NCBI GenBank assembly: GCA_947567625.1
Contig: CANONN010000021.1
Coordinates: 1-53,679, forward strand
Length of the DNA stretch: 53,679 nt
Direction of reading: 5' to 3'
Source of the DNA: an uncultured Roseburia sp.
GTDB lineage: Bacteria; Bacillota; Clostridia; Lachnospirales; Lachnospiraceae
Notes under the pieces: model-generated
Database searches by the model: none
What the model was told of the DNA's origin: nothing
The model's input: the letters and a program-made list of their open reading frames with translations, nothing else
Program-made: the position numbers and the translations under genes
Shown: piece after piece, positions 31,498-47,197 of the stretch
How positions within the stretch are numbered: position 1 is the first letter of the stretch
Layout: every line of letters starts with the position of its first letter

Positions 31498-31528
31498 TTT
31501 TGTCATTTTTAGTCATGAATTTTGTCAT
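31498..31528. other. Direct repeats near the integrase end, possible arm-type sites
   Basis: TTTTGTCAT occurs at 31498-31506 and 31520-31528 with a related TTTTAGTCAT in between, in the short interval between tRNA and integrase stop. Repeats of this kind near an integrase often are recombinase arm-binding sites; no core sequence can be proved with only one junction visible. Confidence 0.3.
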
Positions 31529-32529
31529 ACGGTGTCAGGCAAAATGGAATTTCGTAATTTGTCGGCTGCGTCCCTCTTGGCCTGTTCCTCTTTTTCCATC
31601 ATAGAGTGGCGGTAAACCGATTTCATAACATGATCGCTTTCCCAGCCGCCCATTTTCAATATATCGGCCTCTGGCACCCCAAGTGCTGACATCTGGCTCG
31701 CAAAGTAATGCCGTAGCTTATGTATGGAAAAATGAGGGATAGAAAGAGATTTCTGCACTCTGGACAGATAACATGTAATATTGTTCGGATGCCCTTTATA
31801 TACATATCCCTGCTCATGTATCTTATCGGCAATCGTTGCAGGTATGATAATTTCCCTTGTGCTGCCTGTTGTTTTGGTCGTTTTGATTATCCAGTTCTTG
31901 TTTTCATCCTGAACCATGGCTTTGTTGATTCTAACAATATCTCCGTCAATATCTTCGGGAGTAAGTGCGCATATCTCTGATCGGCGCATACCGTAGCAGG
32001 CAAGCACGATTGGGATTTCAAATCTTGTCCCTTTGGCACATTCCAGTATGCGCTTTATATCGTCAGAAGAGGGTATATATGGTTCGTCTTTGGACTTTTG
32101 TGGAAGTGTGGTATTAATTTTAAGGTTTGGGCAATACATGCCTAAAACGGCCGATATGAAACCATGGTAATTGCGTATGGTCTTTGGGCTGTGCCCTTTT
32201 GCCATCCGATTTATCTCTGCCTGAATGTCAAGCGCTGTGATGTCGTGAATATTCTCGGCTAGAAATTTTTCTGGCATCTGACGCATAATCCCGGCGTATC
32301 CTCTGATAGTGGACGGGGAGAGGACATTTCTTTTTAATTCAATATACTCTTCTGCTGCATCCTGGAATGTCAGGGTTGTGCGCTTACATTTTACTTTATC
32401 CAGCTCTGCCGCCATGGCCTGCATAGCTTCTTTCTGTGTTGGTTTCTCATCAAATATCACGGTGTATGTTTTTCCTTTGTACATCTTCCTTATCCGGTAG
32501 GAGCCGGACGGTAACTTTTCAATCTTCAT
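31525..32529 (-). CDS. int: Tyrosine recombinase / phage integrase
   Basis: A 334-residue site-specific recombinase. N-terminal AP2-like arm-binding part (SYRIRKMYKGKTYTVIFDEK), SAM-like core-binding domain (about 60-150), then the catalytic domain with conserved R in YGMRRSEICALTPEDID, H-x-x-R in HKLRHYFASQM, W in MGGWESDHV and the nucleophile in VYRHSMM. The ATG at 32529 is chosen because AAGGAGG lies 9 nt upstream; the frame open to 32697 covers the promoter area. Reads toward tRNA-Thr. Confidence 0.95.
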   Translation of the reverse strand: MKIEKLPSGSYRIRKMYKGKTYTVIFDEKPTQKEAMQAMAAELDKVKCKRTTLTFQDAAEEYIELKRNVLSPSTIRGYAGIMRQMPEKFLAENIHDITALDIQAEINRMAKGHSPKTIRNYHGFISAVLGMYCPNLKINTTLPQKSKDEPYIPSSDDIKRILECAKGTRFEIPIVLACYGMRRSEICALTPEDIDGDIVRINKAMVQDENKNWIIKTTKTTGSTREIIIPATIADKIHEQGYVYKGHPNNITCYLSRVQKSLSIPHFSIHKLRHYFASQMSALGVPEADILKMGGWESDHVMKSVYRHSMMEKEEQAKRDAADKLRNSILPDTV

Positions 32530-32704
32530 GGATTTATCCTCCTTAAAAATGGTATAAAAATAACAGCCAGACAGAACGGTTGTTCCGCTTGCAAAGCTGT
32601 TTCCGAAAATGGTACAATATGCATGTCTGAAAAAATATATAGTATGCATCTTCGGATGTATGAAAGCCGTTCCTGTTGGCGCAGGGGCGGTTATCATTTT
32701 GGGG

Positions 32705-37194: not shown

Positions 37195-38058
37195 ATGGAA
37201 GGTTTTGAAATGACAACAGGGAGAAGCGTAACCGCAGAGATGGTTACCAGCAGACAGGCACAGGAAGTACAGGGGCAGATTATCATGGCGAAGAAGTTTC
37301 CGCGTGATGAAATCGCGGCGCGCAACCGTATTTTGACAGCCTGCCGGCGTAAGAGGCTGGCAGAACAGGCGGAGTATGAGTATAAACGTGGCACGTCCAA
37401 GGTTACCGGCACATCCATACGGCTTGCAGAGGCTATGGCGCAGAACTGGGGGAACATGGATTTTGGATTTGTTGAGTTGGAGCAAAGAAACGGGGAATCA
37501 CAAGTTATGGCTTATGCGTGGGATTTGGAAACAAATACGAGACAGACTAAAATCTTTACCGTTCCGCATATCCGGGAAACTAAGAGCGGAAATTACCCGC
37601 TGACGAGTTCAAGGGACATTTATGAGATGGTTGCAAATCAGGCTGCAAGGCGAGTGAGGGCGTGTATCTTAGGCATTATTCCAGGCGATATTCAGGAAGA
37701 AGCAGTTGAACAGTGCAGGAAGACGTTGGCTGACGGGGAAAAATTACCATTAGAAGACCTTATCGCAGGTGTTGTAAGGACGGCAAAGGAAGAATATGCA
37801 GTTCCGCAGGAAAGCCTTGAGAAGTACATAGGCTGCAAGGCGGATTCATTTTCCATGAATGACCTTATCCGCCTGAAAAGAGTATTCAATTCCATTAAGG
37901 ACGGAATGGCAAAGCGCGAGGAAATCTTTGAACTGCCGGGCGTGGAGAAGAAAGAAGCGGAGGATGCTTTTGCCGGCAAGGGGAAAAAGGAAGAAAAGAC
38001 GGCTGATGGACAGCAGGAGTTGAATTTTGAGGGTGGTGTTGATGCAGAAGCTAAATGA
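37195..38058 (+). CDS. Phage recombination-associated protein, candidate single-strand annealing protein
   Basis: 287 residues. Text such as AYEY/EYKRGTSKVTGTSIRL, AEAMAQNWGNMDFGFVELEQ and SSRDIYEMVANQAARRVRA recurs in phage proteins that are coded next to a DUF3799-type exonuclease, as here (17-bp overlap with the next gene). Such pairs act in RecE/RecT-like recombination. The annealing function is inferred from the genomic pairing; the fold was not tested. AAGGAGG precedes the ATG. Low-complexity basic/acidic tail (EKKEAEDAFAGKGKKEEK). Confidence 0.6.
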   Translation: MEGFEMTTGRSVTAEMVTSRQAQEVQGQIIMAKKFPRDEIAARNRILTACRRKRLAEQAEYEYKRGTSKVTGTSIRLAEAMAQNWGNMDFGFVELEQRNGESQVMAYAWDLETNTRQTKIFTVPHIRETKSGNYPLTSSRDIYEMVANQAARRVRACILGIIPGDIQEEAVEQCRKTLADGEKLPLEDLIAGVVRTAKEEYAVPQESLEKYIGCKADSFSMNDLIRLKRVFNSIKDGMAKREEIFELPGVEKKEAEDAFAGKGKKEEKTADGQQELNFEGGVDAEAK

Positions 38059-38785
38059 TGACAACTATTATTCACAAGCGGCAAATGAAGCCTTTTTCAG
38101 TGTGAGCCAGTACAAGGATTTCTGCAAATGCGAGGCTATGGCGCTTGCCAAAATACGTGGTGAGTTTGAGCAGAAGCAGACAAAGGCCATGCTGATCGGG
38201 ACACTTGTTGACCGATGGTTTGAGGGCACGCTGGACAAGCTGCGTGAAGAATCCCCGAACATATTCTATTGCCGCAACGGGGCATTGCGGGCAGATTTCC
38301 GAAAGGCTGATGAAATTATCAAGCGTGTGCAGAAAGATGATAGGTTCATGTTGTATATGTCTGGCGAGAAACAGAAAATCCTAACCTTTGAGATGTTTGG
38401 GGCACCGTGGAAAATGAAAATGGATTCTTTTGTACAAGACATCTGCATCACAGATTTAAAGGTTGTGCAGAACTTCAAGAGCCTTGCATTTTGGCGGTAT
38501 GACCTGCAAGGGGCTGTTTATCAGGCAGGCGTTGAGACTTGCGGGTATGGGCGGTTGCCATTTTACTTGGCGGCCACCACAAAAGAAGCTGTCACGGACT
38601 TTGATATCTTCCAGATAGACCAGCCAACGCTTGATATGGCGCTCCGGGAGATTGAGGGGAAGCTGCCACGGTTTATCGCTGTTAAGGCAGGTCTGGAAAA
38701 GCCGCATTACTGCGGTGTGTGCGACTACTGCAAGAGTGTGAAAAAGGCAAGGATAAGGAATTATAGCGAATTGTTGGAGGGATAG
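38042..38785 (+). CDS. PD-(D/E)XK exonuclease, DUF3799/RecE-like
   Basis: 247 residues. MKMDSFVQDICITDLKVVQN shows the PD-(D/E)XK core (D in MDSF, D-L-K), and the cysteines of CGVCDYCK near the C-terminus resemble an iron-sulfur or zinc site of the Cas4/RecE group. The ATG at 38042 follows GAGGGTGGTG. It likely resects double-stranded ends for the upstream protein. The GHKL gene starts 4 bp later. Confidence 0.8.
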   Translation: MQKLNDDNYYSQAANEAFFSVSQYKDFCKCEAMALAKIRGEFEQKQTKAMLIGTLVDRWFEGTLDKLREESPNIFYCRNGALRADFRKADEIIKRVQKDDRFMLYMSGEKQKILTFEMFGAPWKMKMDSFVQDICITDLKVVQNFKSLAFWRYDLQGAVYQAGVETCGYGRLPFYLAATTKEAVTDFDIFQIDQPTLDMALREIEGKLPRFIAVKAGLEKPHYCGVCDYCKSVKKARIRNYSELLEG

Positions 38786-38789
38786 GAAA

Positions 38790-39923
38790 GTGGAAAATGC
38801 AAAATGTTATGAACTGACATTGACCCCTAATTATGTGTCGGACTGGACTTTTAACGATGCAATAAGGGAGTTGATTCAGAATGGTACAGACCAAGAGGTA
38901 TTGGATAAAGAGAACCATTTCAGCATTGAGTATGACGAAGAAAGACAGGTATTGCAGTTAAAAAACAGCAAGTCAGCTCTTAAAATTAATACTCTTTTGC
39001 TTGGCAGGAGCAGTAAGGCAGGAAATGATGATACTGTCGGACAGTTCGGCGAAGGTTATAAGATAGCCGCCCTTGTGCTGAATCGCATTGGAAAGACCTT
39101 TACAGTACTGAACAACGAGAAAAACGAGGTATGGGAATCAAGGTTCAAAAACTCTGAAAAGTGGCTCGAAAAAATTCTTGCTTTTTATATAAGCAAGAGA
39201 GAAACAGAAGATACAGGGCTTTGCATTGAGATAGGAAATGTATCTTGGAGAGAATACAATAACTTATCAGATGTTTGGATAGGAATGTGCGGTTTTGACT
39301 ATGAAAAAGTTGAAACACAGTACGGAGAAATTCTTACAGATAAAGAATTTGCAGGGCAAGTATTTGTGAACGGATTGTATGTTGATTGCAACAGCGATTT
39401 GCAGTATGGGTACAATTGCAAGCCAAGATACATAAATTTGGAACGTGACCGCAAAACTTGTGATACGTGGAATGTTGAGGATATTACTTCAAAAATGATT
39501 GCGGAGGGCATGGTAAACGGTGGTATTCCGATTGAGATTGTAAGGCAGATGGTGGAATCAAATAAAGATGATGTGTACCATTTGGAATTTAATACCTATC
39601 TTGGAGATGTGAAAAAGGTGCAGGAGATGCTTGTAGAATCCTTTGATGAGCAGAATCCACAGCCTTATTCAATCCCTGTTAGTTCGCAGGATGAAATAAA
39701 GAAAGTCAAGGCTTATGGCGGCAATCCGGTTGTTGTTCCTACAAAGGTGGCAACCCTTTTAAAAGCCGAAACAGCAAAGCGATTTGAGGAATTGGTAAAA
39801 ATTCCATGCGGCACAGGAATGACATTAAAGGATAGGTTTTTGCGATGGTATGACGCTTATTCTGAAAAGCTGTTTGATGTGGGAAAGAAAGAACTAAAAA
39901 GCCTTATTGATGAAATGGAGTAA
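38790..39923 (+). CDS. GHKL-fold ATPase in phage recombination cluster
   Basis: 377 residues. The Bergerat-fold N-box is RELIQNGTDQ (E27, N31, D34) and the glycine lid is VGQFGEGYKIA (84-92). The family covers HSP90, MutL, histidine kinases and gyrase B; there is no phosphoacceptor histidine and no membrane helix. The C-terminal half (about 200-377) has no motif I know. GGAGGGATAGG precedes the GTG start. It lies after the exonuclease and before a zinc-ribbon protein and a HerA-like gene. A DNA clamp or repair ATPase, or a defence component, are both possible. Confidence 0.75.
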   Translation: MENAKCYELTLTPNYVSDWTFNDAIRELIQNGTDQEVLDKENHFSIEYDEERQVLQLKNSKSALKINTLLLGRSSKAGNDDTVGQFGEGYKIAALVLNRIGKTFTVLNNEKNEVWESRFKNSEKWLEKILAFYISKRETEDTGLCIEIGNVSWREYNNLSDVWIGMCGFDYEKVETQYGEILTDKEFAGQVFVNGLYVDCNSDLQYGYNCKPRYINLERDRKTCDTWNVEDITSKMIAEGMVNGGIPIEIVRQMVESNKDDVYHLEFNTYLGDVKKVQEMLVESFDEQNPQPYSIPVSSQDEIKKVKAYGGNPVVVPTKVATLLKAETAKRFEELVKIPCGTGMTLKDRFLRWYDAYSEKLFDVGKKELKSLIDEME

Positions 39924-39925
39924 CT

Positions 39926-40141
39926 ATGAATGAAATGAGACGAATTGTAATCTGCAAGCATTGCGGAAAGCCTGAGTATTACAGAGATATGCGTTGGCTG
40001 AACGGTAGATGCAGTTGTAGAAACTGTTATAAAAGCCAATGGCAGGACGAAAACCGCAAGCTTTATATATGGAACGATTTAGATGGTAAAAGACCGACTA
40101 TGGAAGAGTATCAAAAACAAGAAAGCGAGGTGTTGGCTTGA
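39926..40141 (+). CDS. Small zinc-ribbon protein
   Basis: 71 residues with ICKHCGKPEYY at the start and GRCSCRNCYKS later, that is, CxxC and CxC/CxxC pairs able to bind zinc. It lies 2 bp after the GHKL ATPase and overlaps the HerA-like gene by 4 bp, so the three are translationally coupled. It may be an adaptor or single-strand-binding accessory. Confidence 0.7.
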   Translation: MNEMRRIVICKHCGKPEYYRDMRWLNGRCSCRNCYKSQWQDENRKLYIWNDLDGKRPTMEEYQKQESEVLA

Positions 40142-41429
40142 AATTAGTAAAAATATTACCCGACAAAATACAAATCAGGACGGACGATGCGGAGTTTAAA
40201 AACGCCCGCCTGAATGACCTCATATCCGTATCGGACGGAGGAGTGGAGCTTGTTACTATGATAACCGCCATAACGGATAATGACGTGGAAACGCAGATGG
40301 ATGAGAATATCATCATGGAAGAATTGCAGCATCCGTCTTTGAAATTGATTGAGTGCTCTATTCTTGGGAGTGTGATTGGCGGTGAGTTTAAGCAGCAGAT
40401 TGATCGGTATCCGAGTACAGATGTTGTGATAGAGCAAATCAATTATAAGAAATTTGTCAAAATGCTTTACCATGACAAGAAAATTAAGCCGTACTTTCAT
40501 CTTGGCAGGTATTTTAATACATGTGATGCATGGATTGACGGAAACAAATTCTACCAGCGGCATTCCTGCATTGTTGGCAATACAGGCTGCGGTAAGTCCG
40601 AAACAGTCACAAAGATTATCGAAGAAACCGCAAACAATACAAACTGTAATATTGTCATATTTGATATACACGGCGAGTACAGCAAACTTTCCTATGTGGA
40701 CAGTTTCAAGATGGGTGAAGTTCCGTTCCCTATCTGGATGCTTGGGTTTGCGGATATGGCAGCGAATGTGCTGAAAGTGAAAGAGGATAGTACGGTGGTT
40801 ATGTCGGCTCTTAGGAAAGCGTACTATGCGCAGTGTGCAAATGGCAATGAAGGAAAGCCCGTACGATTTGATTTTATTGAAATGCGGGATATTCTGCAAT
40901 CTTTGAATGAGCAGATTGTGATAACCGGATTTACAATATTCAAATCATGCAGAAAGATGCAAGGCCTATCACATTGGTGTGTGATGAAGCACATGTTTAC
41001 ATTCCGGTGGATTTCCAGCTATCCGCGGCACAGCGGCGCATGGTAGAAATATTTGAGAATATCGCGAAAGAGGGCAGGAAGTTTGGGATCACATTGTTTG
41101 TGGCATCTCAAAGACCATCAGAATTGAATAAGACCATTATGGCGCAATGCGCGAACTACATTGTAATGAAACTCAATAACGAGAATGACAAGACCATGAT
41201 TAAGGGCATAATGCCGGCTGGCAGTGCAGATGTAATTGAGACAACTACCATGTTTTCTCCCGGTGATTGCCTTGTGGTCGGGGATGCCTGCCCGATACCG
41301 CTTAAAATTCATGTAGAGCTTGCAAAAGAGCGTCCGCAGAGTAAGACTATAAGTTTCTGGACGGAGTGGCAAAAAGAGCATGAGAGCGTGGATTATGGGG
41401 CTTGTTTGGAGGAATATTTGGAGAATTAG
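40138..41429 (+). pseudogene. HerA-like hexameric ATPase, broken by internal deletion and frameshift
   Basis: N-terminal part, frame of TTG 40138: HAS-like barrel, Walker A GNTGCGKSETV (147-157) and DIHGEYSK (176-183). C-terminal part, another frame: NRIYNIQIMQKDARPITLVC, DEAHVYIP (Walker B), FGITLFVASQRPSELNKT and later GDCLVVGDACPIPLKIHVEL with DFWTEW-like FWTEWQKE. The frames cross at about 40911-40925, and the segment between FDFIEMRDILQSLNEQ and RIYNIQ is much shorter than in intact HerA-like proteins, so a deletion and frameshift are likely. HerA proteins act in DNA end resection or defence. Confidence 0.75.
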
Positions 41430-41518
41430 AGGGGAGGAGGATGAAATTGAAAAGGGATTAAGGGCAGCAATAAAAAAAACATATTTTAAGCTAAATTTTG
41501 AAAGAAAGGGATGAGGAA

Positions 41519-41929
41519 ATGGATTTACTTAGTTTACAGGATTTCACGGGCGGCGCGCTGCAGGAAAAGGTAAATGCGGCAATGCAAAAAGTCCTTGATA
41601 ATATACAGGACCAGAACACGCCTTGGAAGAATAAGCGTTATATCAACATCAAGATTGCATTTCAGTCGAACGAAAACCGGGATGATGTTGCAGTAGAAGT
41701 ATCAGCTAACGAAAAACTTGCCCCTGTTTCCCCTATCGTGACAAGGATGTTAATCGGCAAGGACCTGAGAACAGGAGAAAACTATGCACAGGAGTACGGG
41801 AAGCAGGTAAGAGGCCAAATGACGCTGGATGATTACCAGACAGAGCAGATCATAGGACCAGACGTGGTAAACACGGATACAGGGGAAATTGTTGGAAACA
41901 TAAAAAATTTTAAGGTAGCGGAGGGATAA
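41519..41929 (+). CDS. Phage replication-terminator-like protein
   Basis: 136 residues, MDLLSLQDFTGGALQEKVNA at the start and INIKIAFQSNENRDDVAVEV in the middle; this pattern occurs in phage proteins annotated as replication terminator protein. AAAGGGATGAGGAA lies before the ATG at 41519; the frame extends to 41498 without support. Position before another conserved phage gene fits the DNA-metabolism block. The annotation is by recalled similarity and not independently proved. Confidence 0.55.
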   Translation: MDLLSLQDFTGGALQEKVNAAMQKVLDNIQDQNTPWKNKRYINIKIAFQSNENRDDVAVEVSANEKLAPVSPIVTRMLIGKDLRTGENYAQEYGKQVRGQMTLDDYQTEQIIGPDVVNTDTGEIVGNIKNFKVAEG

Positions 41930-42750: not shown

Positions 42751-42861
42751 ATGGACTGCGTTTACAATACTAGCGGCTTATGTTATCTGGATAACGAGGA
42801 TATAAAAGAATGCCCGTATATCGGATGTGAGGCGGAATGTGATGATATGGAGGAATTTTAA
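42751..42861 (+). CDS. 36-residue cysteine-rich microprotein
   Basis: An open frame with an ideal ribosome site (AAAGGAGGGCTT before the ATG) codes for a 36-residue acidic peptide, with cysteines in MDCVYN, GLCYLDNED, KECPYIGCEAECDD. Five cysteines in 36 residues suggest a small zinc-bound or disulfide knuckle. The rusA gene starts 1 bp after its stop. Confidence 0.5.
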   Translation: MDCVYNTSGLCYLDNEDIKECPYIGCEAECDDMEEF

Positions 42862-42862
42862 A

Positions 42863-43234
42863 TTGGAATATTTACTGACGATTCCTGGAACGCTCAATAA
42901 TCTCAATGATTACATAGCCGCAGAGCGCACGAACCGCTACAACGGGGCGAAGATGAAAGCAGACAACGGGGAAATTGTTGCAGTAGCGATCAGGCAGTGC
43001 ATGAGGGGCGTGAGGATTGGGAATCCGGTATTCATGAAGTATTTATGGGTGGAACCGAATAGACGGCGCGATAAAGATAATATTTCGTCGTTTGGCCGGA
43101 AGGTGATACAGGATGCCCTTGTAGATACCGGGGTATTAAAGGATGATGGATGGAAGTATGTTGTCGGGTTTTCCGACAGTTTTGAAGTGGATAAGGAAAA
43201 TCCGCGGATTGAAGTAAGGATCATAGAGCGATAA
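42863..43234 (+). CDS. RusA-family Holliday junction resolvase
   Basis: 123 residues from a TTG with GGAGG nine bases upstream. The conserved acidic surface RRRDKDNISSFGRKVIQDAL and VLKDDGWK has the family aspartates. Resolves four-way junctions in phage replication and recombination. It follows the recombination cluster. Confidence 0.85.
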   Translation: MEYLLTIPGTLNNLNDYIAAERTNRYNGAKMKADNGEIVAVAIRQCMRGVRIGNPVFMKYLWVEPNRRRDKDNISSFGRKVIQDALVDTGVLKDDGWKYVVGFSDSFEVDKENPRIEVRIIER

Positions 43235-43300
43235 GGGAAAAAGCTATTCTGCTGTTGTTGGTGATACGATGGCAGCAGCGTGGCGAATTTAGGAGTTATT

Positions 43301-44167
43301 ATGGCAAAGATAGGGATGGATAGTTTCCTTTTGGACTGCCACACTAACGACAATATCTCTGAAATCGAAGCAGCATATGGAGTAAAAGGGTTTGCGGTAG
43401 TAGTCCGGCTCTGGCAGAAGATATACAGCGAGAAGGGTTACTACTGTGAATGGGTCGAAAGAAGCCCGCTTCTGTTTCTGGCGAACTGGTTCGGTGGAAA
43501 CAGCGGCGTGACTGTCAACTTAATAATGGATATTGTAAACAGGTGCTTAAATAATGGCATATTTGATGCCGGGATGTATGGGAACTACTCCATTCTCACA
43601 TCAGAAAGGATACAGTCACAATACTTTGATGTAGTAAAAAGACGCGAAAGTATCCCGGTAAAAAAAGAGTACCTTTTGATTAGTGTTGGCAAAATTAAGG
43701 GTATTGCATACGAAAATGAAGTTTCTGTATGCAGAAATCAAAAAAATGTATGCAGAAGTGGCACAAGTAAAGAAAAGGAAAGTAAAGGAAATAAAAACAG
43801 AGAGTGCATGCGCCGGATCGAAGATTTTATCTCTGCTTATCCGAAAAACTGCAACCGCCATCTGACGGAGGCAGCATATATTAATCTGATTGCCGATGGA
43901 GTGGAAACAGAGGACAACCTTGTTACATGTGCTAAAAATTATGCAGAGGCTTGCAGGATTGAGGGACTGATTAACGAAACAAAGAAGCGCTATATCAAAA
44001 ACGCAGAGAATTTCCTTAAAGATTTTGTGTTTGAACAATATCTTCCAGGGAAATACAAGAAACCCGCAGCGCAGAAACCAAAGAACAATTTCACTAATTT
44101 CTCGCAGCGGGAATATGATTTTGACGAGTTGGAAAAGAGGCTGTTAAATTCGACGCCGGGTGGATGA
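43301..44167 (+). CDS. Phage replisome organizer (DUF4373/Lin1244-type N-terminus)
   Basis: 288 residues. The N-terminal 110 residues (FLLDCHTNDNISEIEAAYGV, GFAVVVRLWQKIYSEKGYYC) match the Lin1244/Lin1753-type winged-helix domain of phage replication initiators; the C-terminal half has basic and helical segments. TTAGGAG precedes the ATG at 43301; a GTG at 43280 is in a poorer context. Likely binds the phage origin or loads the host helicase. No DnaC-like loader is seen in this window. Confidence 0.75.
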   Translation: MAKIGMDSFLLDCHTNDNISEIEAAYGVKGFAVVVRLWQKIYSEKGYYCEWVERSPLLFLANWFGGNSGVTVNLIMDIVNRCLNNGIFDAGMYGNYSILTSERIQSQYFDVVKRRESIPVKKEYLLISVGKIKGIAYENEVSVCRNQKNVCRSGTSKEKESKGNKNRECMRRIEDFISAYPKNCNRHLTEAAYINLIADGVETEDNLVTCAKNYAEACRIEGLINETKKRYIKNAENFLKDFVFEQYLPGKYKKPAAQKPKNNFTNFSQREYDFDELEKRLLNSTPGG

Positions 44168-44286
44168 AAGAGGTTATTTGGCAGGGTTAGATATACATAC
44201 CAGCTGCCAGGAGTTCAACAGGAAAAATAACAGAAAGGAGCCAAGCCTCCGGCCGGGGTGACGTGTACACGGGCTTCTTGAAAAAA

Positions 44287-45000
44287 ATGATACAAAACAA
44301 AAAAATGCGTATTTTGGTAGCCTGCGAAGAAAGCCAGCGCGTCTGCATAGAATTTCGGCGCTTAGGACATGAAGCCTATTCCTGCGACATTGAAGAATGT
44401 TCCGGTGGACGCCCGGAATGGCACATACAGGCTGATGTTCTTCCTCTGCTGAACGGAGATTGCAGTTTTCGGACAGTGGACGGAGCGGAACATAGTATTT
44501 ACGGAAAATGGGATATGATTATAGCTTTCCCTCCATGCACCTATCTATCCAATGCAGGGGCAAGGCATTTATGGAAAGGGCATAAATTGAATCGGGATAG
44601 ATACGAAAAAGGCCTTAAAGCAAAAGGATTTTTCATGCAGTTTTATAACGCTGACTGCGAAAAGATAGCAATCGAGAACCCGACACCAAGTAAAATCTAT
44701 GAGCTGCCAGAAAAGCAACAAGTGATACAGCCTTATCAATTTGGACACCCATACACAAAGAGGACGCAGCTTTGGCTGAAAGGTTTGCCGCTGCTAGAAC
44801 CGACGGAAATCGTTAAACCTGTTGCCACATGGTGTCCGAGTGGTTCATACTCTCACAAGCACGGAGAACAGCACAAAGGAATGTTTACAACAGACAGGGC
44901 GAAGAATAGGGCAAAAACATTTGAGGGGATTGCAAAAGCTATGGCAGAGCAGTGGGGGATAATCAGGAATGAAATATATAGCAAGTTGGAGCGGTGGTAA
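44287..45000 (+). CDS. C5-methyltransferase-like protein without obvious recognition domain
   Basis: About 237 residues. A Rossmann-type start (MRILVACEESQRVC), PPC motif in IIAFPPCTYLSNAG (motif IV of C5-cytosine methyltransferases), then IAIENPTPSKIY (ENP, motif VI-like) and YTKRTQLWLKGLP (motif VIII-like). It lacks a target-recognition domain, so it is a compact variant. The start is uncertain: GTG 44263 or ATG 44305 are alternatives. It overlaps the PP-loop gene by 32 bp. Confidence 0.65.
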   Translation: MIQNKKMRILVACEESQRVCIEFRRLGHEAYSCDIEECSGGRPEWHIQADVLPLLNGDCSFRTVDGAEHSIYGKWDMIIAFPPCTYLSNAGARHLWKGHKLNRDRYEKGLKAKGFFMQFYNADCEKIAIENPTPSKIYELPEKQQVIQPYQFGHPYTKRTQLWLKGLPLLEPTEIVKPVATWCPSGSYSHKHGEQHKGMFTTDRAKNRAKTFEGIAKAMAEQWGIIRNEIYSKLERW

Positions 45001-45745
45001 AGACAGTACCGCAAGTATAATCTTGGCGCACGAACACAACGAGCCGCTTGACCTTATCATATTTTCCGAGGTTATGTTTGATAAAAATATCAGCGGAGAA
45101 TTGCCAGAGCATATAGATTTTATCAAAAACAAATGTATTCCACTGTTTGAAAGTTGGGGGTATGAAACAAAGATACTCCATGCGGACTTGACCTATATGG
45201 ATATATTTTTAAGGCAACCAACAAGGGGCAAACGATTCGGCACTGGAATGATAACAGGTTTTCCGATGTCGGGCAGATGCCAGATTAACCGAAGCGTAAA
45301 AGTTCTTCCAATAAAGCGATTTTTAAAGAGTTTTGAAGAAGAGTTTACCCAATACATAGGGATTGCGGTTGATGAACCAGTCAGACTTGACAGAGTTGTG
45401 AAAAGCACAAACCAAATATCATTACTGCAAAAGTACGAATATACAGAGCATATGGCATTTGACCTATGCAAGAAATATGACTTGCTATCCCCCAATTATA
45501 ATTTTGCTCCCAGGGGTGGTTGTTGGTTCTGTCCTAATGCGAGAGATTGTGAATTGCGACATTTAAGAAATAATCATAGAGATTTGTGGGATAAGCTGTT
45601 GAAGCTGGAAGAAATGCCAGACCTTATAGGGAATATATGGAACACGCTCACACAGACAAGCATACACGACAAAGAAGAACAATTTTACTGGGAAGATAAT
45701 CAGATAACTATATTTGACTATATAGAAAGGAAAGCATATGAGTAA
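44969..45745 (+). CDS. PP-loop ATPase, PAPS reductase/DndC-like family
   Basis: 258 residues with SGGKDST at 8-14, the PP-loop that activates a substrate by adenylation. Cysteines CWFCPNARDC in the C-terminal half suggest an iron-sulfur or zinc site. No sulfurtransferase or other dnd gene adjoins. Overlap with the upstream methyltransferase-like gene suggests joint action on a nucleic acid, such as phage DNA or tRNA modification. Confidence 0.75.
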   Translation: MKYIASWSGGKDSTASIILAHEHNEPLDLIIFSEVMFDKNISGELPEHIDFIKNKCIPLFESWGYETKILHADLTYMDIFLRQPTRGKRFGTGMITGFPMSGRCQINRSVKVLPIKRFLKSFEEEFTQYIGIAVDEPVRLDRVVKSTNQISLLQKYEYTEHMAFDLCKKYDLLSPNYNFAPRGGCWFCPNARDCELRHLRNNHRDLWDKLLKLEEMPDLIGNIWNTLTQTSIHDKEEQFYWEDNQITIFDYIERKAYE

Positions 45746-46068: not shown

Positions 46069-46410
46069 ATGAATAAAACAAAATTAAATTGTTCTTTGAA
46101 CGATACAACAGAATTAAGAAATCTTATCATAGAAAACCCTGGTTTGCCATTACTGATTTTCTGCGGAGAAGATTCTTGGCATGACGAATATCCGTATGAG
46201 CAGGCAGATGTAAGAAGAGTAGGAATTGAAGAATTAACTCTCTACAATGACTATTGGTTAGATAAGGATGATTATGAAGAAAAACTTGCAGATAATTTAT
46301 CTGATGAAGAGGAATATAAAAATTTGTCTGATAAAAAGTATAACCGGATGATTAAAGAAAAGGTTGCGGGAACAGAATTTGTAAAAGCTATTGTTATCTA
46401 TGTCGGATAA
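46069..46410 (+). CDS. Hypothetical acidic protein
   Basis: 113 residues, pI acidic, with LPLLIFCGEDSWHDEYPYEQ near 28-47 and a helical C-terminus. AAAGAAAGGTAGGAA precedes the ATG. It overlaps the frame of the next gene slightly before its chosen start. No family recognised; possibly an anti-defence or auxiliary protein of the phage. Confidence 0.6.
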   Translation: MNKTKLNCSLNDTTELRNLIIENPGLPLLIFCGEDSWHDEYPYEQADVRRVGIEELTLYNDYWLDKDDYEEKLADNLSDEEEYKNLSDKKYNRMIKEKVAGTEFVKAIVIYVG

Positions 46411-46435
46411 GTTTCAGGGAATTGTGGAGGGAAAG

Positions 46436-47197
46436 ATGGATAAAACAAAAATAGATTGGTGCGATTCAACATGGAATCCAGTCACAGGTTGTTGGCATGG
46501 GTGCGAATACTGCTATGCGAGAGGAATTGCAAAAAGATTTGGGAGAAATTTACCTGATTTGTCAGACTTTGCAAGCAAAAACAAGGGATTGCATTTATTG
46601 GATAACAAGATTGATTCTACTCCGTATCCATTTGGATTTGAGCCAACATTTCATGCGTACCGCTTGAATGAATACATAGGCAAACAAGGCAGAAATATAT
46701 TTGTCTGCTCTATGGCTGATTTGTTTGGGAAGTGGGTGCCAGATAGATGGATTGAAGAAGTGTTTAAGGCTTGTGAGAAAGCACCACAACACAATTATCT
46801 GTTTCTGACAAAGAACCCGCAGAGATACGAACAGTATGGTGTTCCTTCTTGGCAAAATAATATGTGGTATGGTTGCACGATTTCAAGAAAAGCAGATATA
46901 AGAAATTCCGCTTTTTTACCTTTGGAATGCAAGAGATTTGTTAGCATAGAACCTTTATTAGAAGATATTCAGCCTAAAGATGATGCTTTATATAATTATG
47001 TTTATTGGGCAATCATTGGGGCAGAAACTGGACGGAGAAAAGACAAGGTTGTTCCGAAAAGAAAGTGGATTGAGGATATTGTAAATGAATGCAGAAAATC
47101 AAATGTTCCGGTCTTTATGAAATCAAGCCTTGCGGAGATTTGGGGAGAACCGTTGATACAGGAATTTCCAGTTGGATTAAGGGATAGATTGAAATAG
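46436..47197 (+). CDS. DUF5131 phage Gp37/Gp68-family protein
   Basis: 253 residues with CWHGCEYCYARG: C19, C23, C26 form a CX3CX2C cluster like radical SAM enzymes, preceded by DWCDSTWNPVTG. GGAGGGAAAG precedes the ATG at 46436. Widespread in phages with unproved function. An iron-sulfur cluster seems likely. It may modify nucleic acid or protein. Confidence 0.85.
   Translation: MDKTKIDWCDSTWNPVTGCWHGCEYCYARGIAKRFGRNLPDLSDFASKNKGLHLLDNKIDSTPYPFGFEPTFHAYRLNEYIGKQGRNIFVCSMADLFGKWVPDRWIEEVFKACEKAPQHNYLFLTKNPQRYEQYGVPSWQNNMWYGCTISRKADIRNSAFLPLECKRFVSIEPLLEDIQPKDDALYNYVYWAIIGAETGRRKDKVVPKRKWIEDIVNECRKSNVPVFMKSSLAEIWGEPLIQEFPVGLRDRLK

Follow-up and report, generated by a model that had tools for sequence, protein, structure and literature searches.

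A mosaic recombination cassette in a Roseburia prophage carries a GHKL protein of an unnamed phage family

The window analysed here (53,679 nucleotides of contig CANONN010000021.1 from an uncultured Roseburia sp., assembly GCA_947567625.1) is a single contig from a genome of 3.42 Mb and carries the early region of a prophage, in which genes for a PD-(D/E)XK exonuclease, a GHKL ATPase, a small zinc-ribbon protein and a HerA-like ATPase lie side by side. An initial annotation, made from the sequence, read these four as a coupled set which might act as a resection and annealing machine or as an anti-host or anti-phage module. We find that the genes form a mosaic cassette for phage recombination, a variant of known ones, and not one four-part machine. 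Its firm core is a candidate annealing protein of family phrog_3657 with a DUF3799 exonuclease, to which the HerA-like gene has been added in a sub-lineage; that the GHKL protein is an accessory of this mosaic cassette, acting in phage recombination as a clamp ATPase, is a reading to which we give about an even chance. The four genes do not merit an entry in catalogues as a new system; what deserves further attention is the GHKL family, which has no name, has an altered base pocket and recurs next to annealing proteins. The genes concerned are as follows.

37195..38058, plus strand: candidate single-strand annealing protein of family phrog_3657 (weak match to the RAD52/Red-beta fold)
38042..38785, plus strand: DUF3799 PD-(D/E)XK exonuclease, RecE/ExoVIII-like, with DLK at residue 138 (Pfam, PHROG)
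38790..39923, plus strand: GHKL ATPase of phrog_6077, 377 amino acids, GTG start
39926..40141, plus strand: zinc-ribbon protein, 71 amino acids, CxxC-x17-CxxC
40138..41046, plus strand: HerA-like gene, piece 1, with Walker A motif GNTGCGKS; homology stops near 40936 (Pfam, PHROG)
40928..40936, plus strand: junction of the putative internal deletion in the HerA-like gene, with about 250 bp absent relative to locus L002 (blastn)
40947..41429, plus strand: HerA-like gene, piece 2, in a different frame, with Walker B motif CDEAH; homology starts near 40928 (PHROG, PADLOC)

The order, coordinates and tight spacing (4 bp or less) of the four adjacent genes were as first annotated, with gaps of 4 bp between the exonuclease and GHKL genes and 2 bp between the GHKL and zinc-ribbon genes, and an overlap of 4 bp between the zinc-ribbon and HerA-like genes; the phrog_3657 gene in turn overlaps the exonuclease gene by 17 bp. 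To describe them as coupled was too strong. GHKL loci were collected as the best 80 of 221 in viral contigs, at least 34 from a genome scan, and named phage records, and 118 of them, including the window, fell into 67 clusters at 60% identity, with L006, L072, L079, L109 and L112 standing outside the cluster count as loci where a simple gene caller did not place the GHKL gene (one contig underlies L002, L094, L130 and L209, and another underlies L129 and L210). Because the local models for neighbouring genes were seeded from these same loci, the counts describe these loci and are no independent survey; the seeds from L104, L110 and L207 had no Pfam match and carry our own labels. Within 6 kb of the GHKL gene, HerA was found in 2 of the 67 clusters and the exonuclease in 4, so that the GHKL gene occurs mostly without either neighbour, which the initial annotation had itself named as a finding that would count against its proposal. 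A set of 48 virus records of our own choosing (covering 46 of the 67 clusters, two clusters twice) gave DUF3799 in 3 and HerA above cut-off in 2, one of these lying 35 kb off.

Seen from the other genes, the parts likewise occur separately, and a fixed four-gene machine was rejected for this reason. Among phrog_3657 loci (best 80 of 145), the exonuclease lies downstream in 61, HerA is present in 8 and GHKL in 1. The seven viral HerA loci, which are close relatives and exclude three weak phage-collection matches (two from Streptococcus phages and one other), have the exonuclease directly upstream in five, the exonuclease followed by GHKL in one and neither found in one, and Blautia phage Montmirail carries annealing protein, exonuclease and HerA without GHKL. 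The order exonuclease-GHKL-HerA was found in L002, L095 and L097 with HerA whole (L097 having one additional small gene ahead of it) and in the window with HerA broken, while the parts stand in other orders in L100 and in L108, a Burkholderiales contig with a GHKL protein 30% identical, DUF3799, phrog_3657 and a HerA-like gene. No paper describing this four-gene set turned up in searches of one open-access library.

The exonuclease assignment was borne out as DUF3799 type, the sole Pfam match of this nuclease (PF12684, E 5e-55, 187 bits against a cut-off of 26), together with a match to a PHROG exonuclease family (E 2e-60). A PD-(D/E)XK exonuclease and an annealing protein together carry out resection and annealing in the RecE/RecT and Red systems, and by family and fold the annealing candidate and the exonuclease here would resect and anneal DNA ends in a similar manner. 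The window resembles RecE/RecT, Red and ERF modules in that the annealing-protein candidate gene overlaps the exonuclease gene, but it differs in having phrog_3657 in place of RecT, Beta or ERF, and in the added HerA and GHKL genes. In the sub-lineage with HerA, the HerA-like translocase encoded behind the exonuclease probably feeds DNA to the nuclease, as HerA does to NurA; a HerA-type translocase powers nuclease resection in HerA-NurA, as stated in an excerpt of PMC9960219. Intact relatives share with that end-resection complex a HerA-like translocase gene beside a nuclease gene, but the nuclease here is DUF3799 and not NurA, the HerA gene of the window is broken, and the annealing protein and GHKL are extra. 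The proposed resection and annealing role is the best reading for annealing protein, exonuclease and HerA, and fails as a fixed four-gene set.

The initial annotation had taken the last gene for an intact HerA-like ATPase, but the stretch joining its Walker A half to its Walker B half lacks about 250 bp, not a multiple of three, and the reading frame does not continue across it. DNA alignment to L002 stops at about 40936 of the window and restarts at about 40928, and blastn with six relatives gave, for five, a match ending between 40827 and 40936 (varying by relative) and restarting at 40928, and for the sixth, L100, a partial alignment. Piece 1 corresponds to residues 1 to about 266 of intact relatives (Pfam DUF87, E 3e-19; phrog_7035, E 1e-42), and piece 2 (phrog_7035, E 1e-54; PADLOC HerA, E 1e-55) is 92.5-95% identical to residues 354-513 of the L002 and L095 HerA proteins; the two Walker motifs are split between two frames in the window and lie in one frame in L002, L095, L097, L127 and L129. 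In L002 the flanks of the stretch absent from the window are similar to each other over a few bases, and the loss would fit a deletion between short repeats, with an assembly error as the alternative. As the HerA gene is broken in this assembly, the HerA-assisted form of the cassette cannot be complete in this prophage. The HerA-like protein of Blautia phage Montmirail (L008:6552-8099) is annotated as a terminase large subunit, and phrog_2666, which bears the same name, matches piece 2 of the window (E 4e-13); the label is probably a misnomer that is being passed on among HerA-like proteins.

The GHKL protein is a full-length match to phrog_6077 (E 8e-62), as were nine other members scanned, a family of phage proteins without name or recorded function; 299 genomes of the host family gave two GHKL matches, one of which is the window itself. 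The N-box (E27, N31, D34) and lid, which the initial annotation described as intact, do not vary across the 61 aligned members (the lid reading G84xxG87EG89xK91). The G1 box DxGxG, on which that annotation made no comment, is however lost in all 61, with serine in 32, asparagine in 28 and threonine in 1 at the aspartate position, as assigned by eye from the alignment and predicted strands. The G1-box aspartate is the adenine-binding residue.

A confident structure model shows a GHKL domain with a Bergerat fold and glycine lid, a transducer-like middle domain and a helical C-terminus, and by structure comparison it resembles Hsp90, topoisomerase II and MORC; Hsp90/TRAP1, the topoisomerase II ATPase and MORC share an N-terminal GHKL domain followed by a middle or transducer domain, but the window protein has less than 20% identity to them and is without the G1 aspartate and without a nuclease, Toprim or CW domain. 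Searches with the GHKL profile against PDB sequences gave marginal matches, chiefly to Hsp90, and NCBIfam gave a weak sacsin-domain match below cut-off. The possibility that this is an ordinary MutL, kinase or gyrase fragment, also raised at the outset as a point that would tell against the proposal, was rejected by homology and structure, as it is a full GHKL-plus-transducer protein of phrog_6077. We propose that the protein is a clamp of the Hsp90/MutL type, a dimer that would be opened and closed by its nucleotide cycle around phage DNA or the annealing-protein complex.

The modelled protein is Hsp90- and phage RIIA-like by fold, and is not RIIA by sequence. This bears on the chief rival to the accessory-clamp reading, namely that the GHKL protein is a counter-defence factor and a short functional analogue of T4 RIIA which travels in early regions, an explanation which we regard as possible though rather doubtful. 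Foldseek against BFVD names RIIA in 14 of the 50 listed rows, the first at rank 10 (E 4e-9), but a Sulfolobales filamentous virus protein ranks above them all at rank 7. The fold, N-box and lid are similar to those of the T4 RIIA family (phrog_612 and relatives), which also pairs GHKL and middle domains; the window protein, however, is 377 amino acids long against 725, without the long C-terminal part of RIIA and the DFGPG box of T4 rIIA. None of 10 phrog_6077 proteins matched a RIIA PHROG at E<=0.1, while T4 rIIA matched seven lysis PHROGs (six named RIIA and one RIIB). Comparison of the GHKL family with T4 rIIA by hidden Markov model and hhalign was weak (hhalign probability 47.8%), and a viral-contig search for T4 rIIA relatives returned four copies only, at 98-99%, too few for a family profile. 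One phrog_6077 protein carries a RIIA annotation, relatives occur in 113 phage records, many of them of large phages, and rIIA orthologues (GHKL plus variable C-terminus) are placed among poorly understood counter-defence systems in excerpts of PMC7824862, with counter-defence by RIIA also given in an excerpt of PMC8594841; against the analogy stands the recurrence of GHKL next to annealing-protein genes, described below. In Pseudomonas phage PAKlein3 the phrog_6077 protein (L006:5965-7056) is annotated as a RIIA lysis inhibitor and has no RIIA PHROG match. Two Pseudomonas phages have a gene for an ATP-dependent DNA ligase some 0.3-0.8 kb upstream of GHKL (L003:4307-5191, by PHROG, and L006:4737-5642, by record annotation).

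An annealing-protein gene was found within 6 kb of GHKL in 8 of the 67 clusters and within 1.5 kb in 7, and the partners within 1.5 kb are of five types. These are phrog_3657 (window, L002, L097, L098, L108), RecT (L048, L077, L095, L096, L100), ERF with a YqaJ exonuclease and SSB (L105), a Rad52-like protein with Gp157 (Pseudomonas prophages, such as L058 and L110) and an AAA_24 or Sak4-like protein (L093, which also has Gp157, and L099); L079, outside the cluster count, has RecT adjoining GHKL. The Sak4 and PD-(D/E)XK labels of some neighbours were assigned by eye. In the tree the window GHKL protein is sister to that of L093 (95% identical; order Gp157-GHKL-AAA_24; support 85/81), and L097, with exonuclease and HerA, is sister to L099, with AAA_24 (support 100/99). 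Thus in the closest clade GHKL keeps its place in recombination cassettes while the cassettes change. Across the 48 virus records, DUF3799, RecT or Rad52-like proteins were found in 7, all within 5 kb of GHKL (one DUF3799 match being weak), whereas a dUTPase control was within 5 kb in 1 of 11 (1.5 expected). A per-record test with YqaJ included gave 7 of 12 close (P = 0.016).

These neighbourhoods also bear on the explanation that GHKL is a passenger in a gene-exchange hot spot, whose closeness to recombination genes has no functional meaning. Phages do swap genes at recombination loci, the context differs between close relatives, and only 7 of the 67 clusters have GHKL adjacent to an annealing-protein gene; yet the adjacency recurs in distant lineages with five types of annealing protein, dUTPase shows no such closeness and, because its catalytic motifs are invariant, the gene is under selection, so we judge a passenger to be distinctly improbable.

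Several points weigh against the accessory-clamp reading itself. Because the G1 aspartate is lost, use of ATP is not assured. The match of phrog_3657 to the RAD52/Red-beta fold is weak, with no match among PDB sequences, and the Pfam match behind the Rad52-like label (L058) is below cut-off. In the 48 records, YqaJ alone was close in 2 of 7 (1.7 expected) and AAA_24 in 3 of 13 (3.3 expected), so there was no enrichment and no general linkage of either to GHKL was found. As the tested families were picked after some neighbourhoods had been seen, the test was not blind and its result is suggestive. Fifty-nine of the 67 clusters have no annealing protein within 6 kb, a count limited by short flanks at some loci and by narrow local models, and neighbourhood is no proof of contact. 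Taken with these points, the linkage of GHKL to annealing proteins looks real in some lineages and not general. The L058 protein (L058:7065-7784) matches the exonuclease families phrog_7838 and phrog_2489, and, because of its weak Pfam Rad52_Rad22 match (E 0.0075, below cut-off), may be an annealing protein.

A stronger form of the accessory-clamp reading, which we advance tentatively and think unlikely, is that phrog_6077, whose base pocket is non-canonical (serine or asparagine for the adenine-binding aspartate), is a general, partner-independent clamp loading onto or remodelling annealing complexes, with five types or more among its partners. If this were true, the kinship of fold would be a hint that DNA ends or recombination intermediates are also what T4 RIIA acts on. 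Should clamps of the GHKL kind prove to be regular accessories of annealing cassettes, they would form an ATP-driven, MutL-like layer of control beyond exonuclease and annealing protein, and phrog_6077 would offer small, tractable fold relatives for asking what the RIIA class does. With the G1 aspartate lost throughout the aligned members, which nucleotide the family uses becomes a question for direct biochemistry.

The zinc-ribbon protein is present as first annotated, with CxxC motifs at residues 10 and 31 and its four cysteines invariant in 4 aligned members. It adjoins GHKL in 5 of 14 loci and HerA in 1 of 14, the window alone, and was rejected as a HerA partner on that count (the count leaves out L226, a weak match in a 288-amino-acid frame, and a weak L029 match, E 3e-6, located upstream of GHKL); it was not found in L002, L095 or L097. 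In L208, L223 and L225 the zinc-ribbon gene is directly upstream of, and overlaps, a divergent GHKL gene, in reversed order compared with the window, and GHKL and zinc ribbon are possibly a candidate pair there.

That exonuclease, GHKL, zinc ribbon and HerA form a prophage-borne anti-phage defence module, the other proposal of the initial annotation, found little support and we hold it to be very improbable. The HerA pieces match PADLOC HerA models well (E 1e-55), but against NCBIfam HerA_antiphage they score 66 and 139 bits, far under the cut-off of 850 (pieces only being scanned), and neither GHKL nor the zinc ribbon has a PADLOC match at E<=0.1. An excerpt of PMC12137116 describes a single defence protein, VcSduA, that unites GHKL and a PD-(D/E)XK nuclease, and VcSduA and paraMORC, as excerpts of PMC12137116 and PMC2292703 describe them, resemble the window in linking a GHKL ATPase to a nuclease; theirs, however, are a fused protein or restriction-modification operons, whereas here separate genes sit in a phage recombination run. 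The genes also lie within an early recombination and replication run, the exonuclease is of phage recombination type and the set is not kept as a unit.

The early prophage region runs from an integrase-like open reading frame toward the contig end, with the order phrog_3657, DUF3799 exonuclease, GHKL, zinc ribbon, HerA-like, phrog_997, phrog_1029, RusA resolvase and replication initiator, and the nearest relatives of the phage genes are from Lachnospiraceae (genome scan, among the matches listed). With phrog_3657 upstream, and because a RusA-like resolvase and a replication-initiation protein lie downstream, the initial description as a recombination cluster is a fair one. The further features are as follows.

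31525-32697, minus strand: phage-type integrase-like open reading frame (labelled by eye)
41498..41929, plus strand: phrog_997 ('replication terminator') protein, the following gene of the cluster (PHROG)
42827..43234, plus strand: RusA-like Holliday junction resolvase (Pfam, PHROG)
43280..44167, plus strand: replication initiation protein (Pfam, PHROG)

The phrog_997 gene is also 3' of HerA in Blautia phage Montmirail, L100, L212 and L213. Just 3' of the RusA gene in L095 are two minus-strand open reading frames (L095:9600-11014), which we take to resemble an IS3-type transposase. More early genes follow in the window at 44263-45745 and 46391-47197, presumably resembling DNA-modification-type, PAPS-reductase-like and DUF5131-like proteins.

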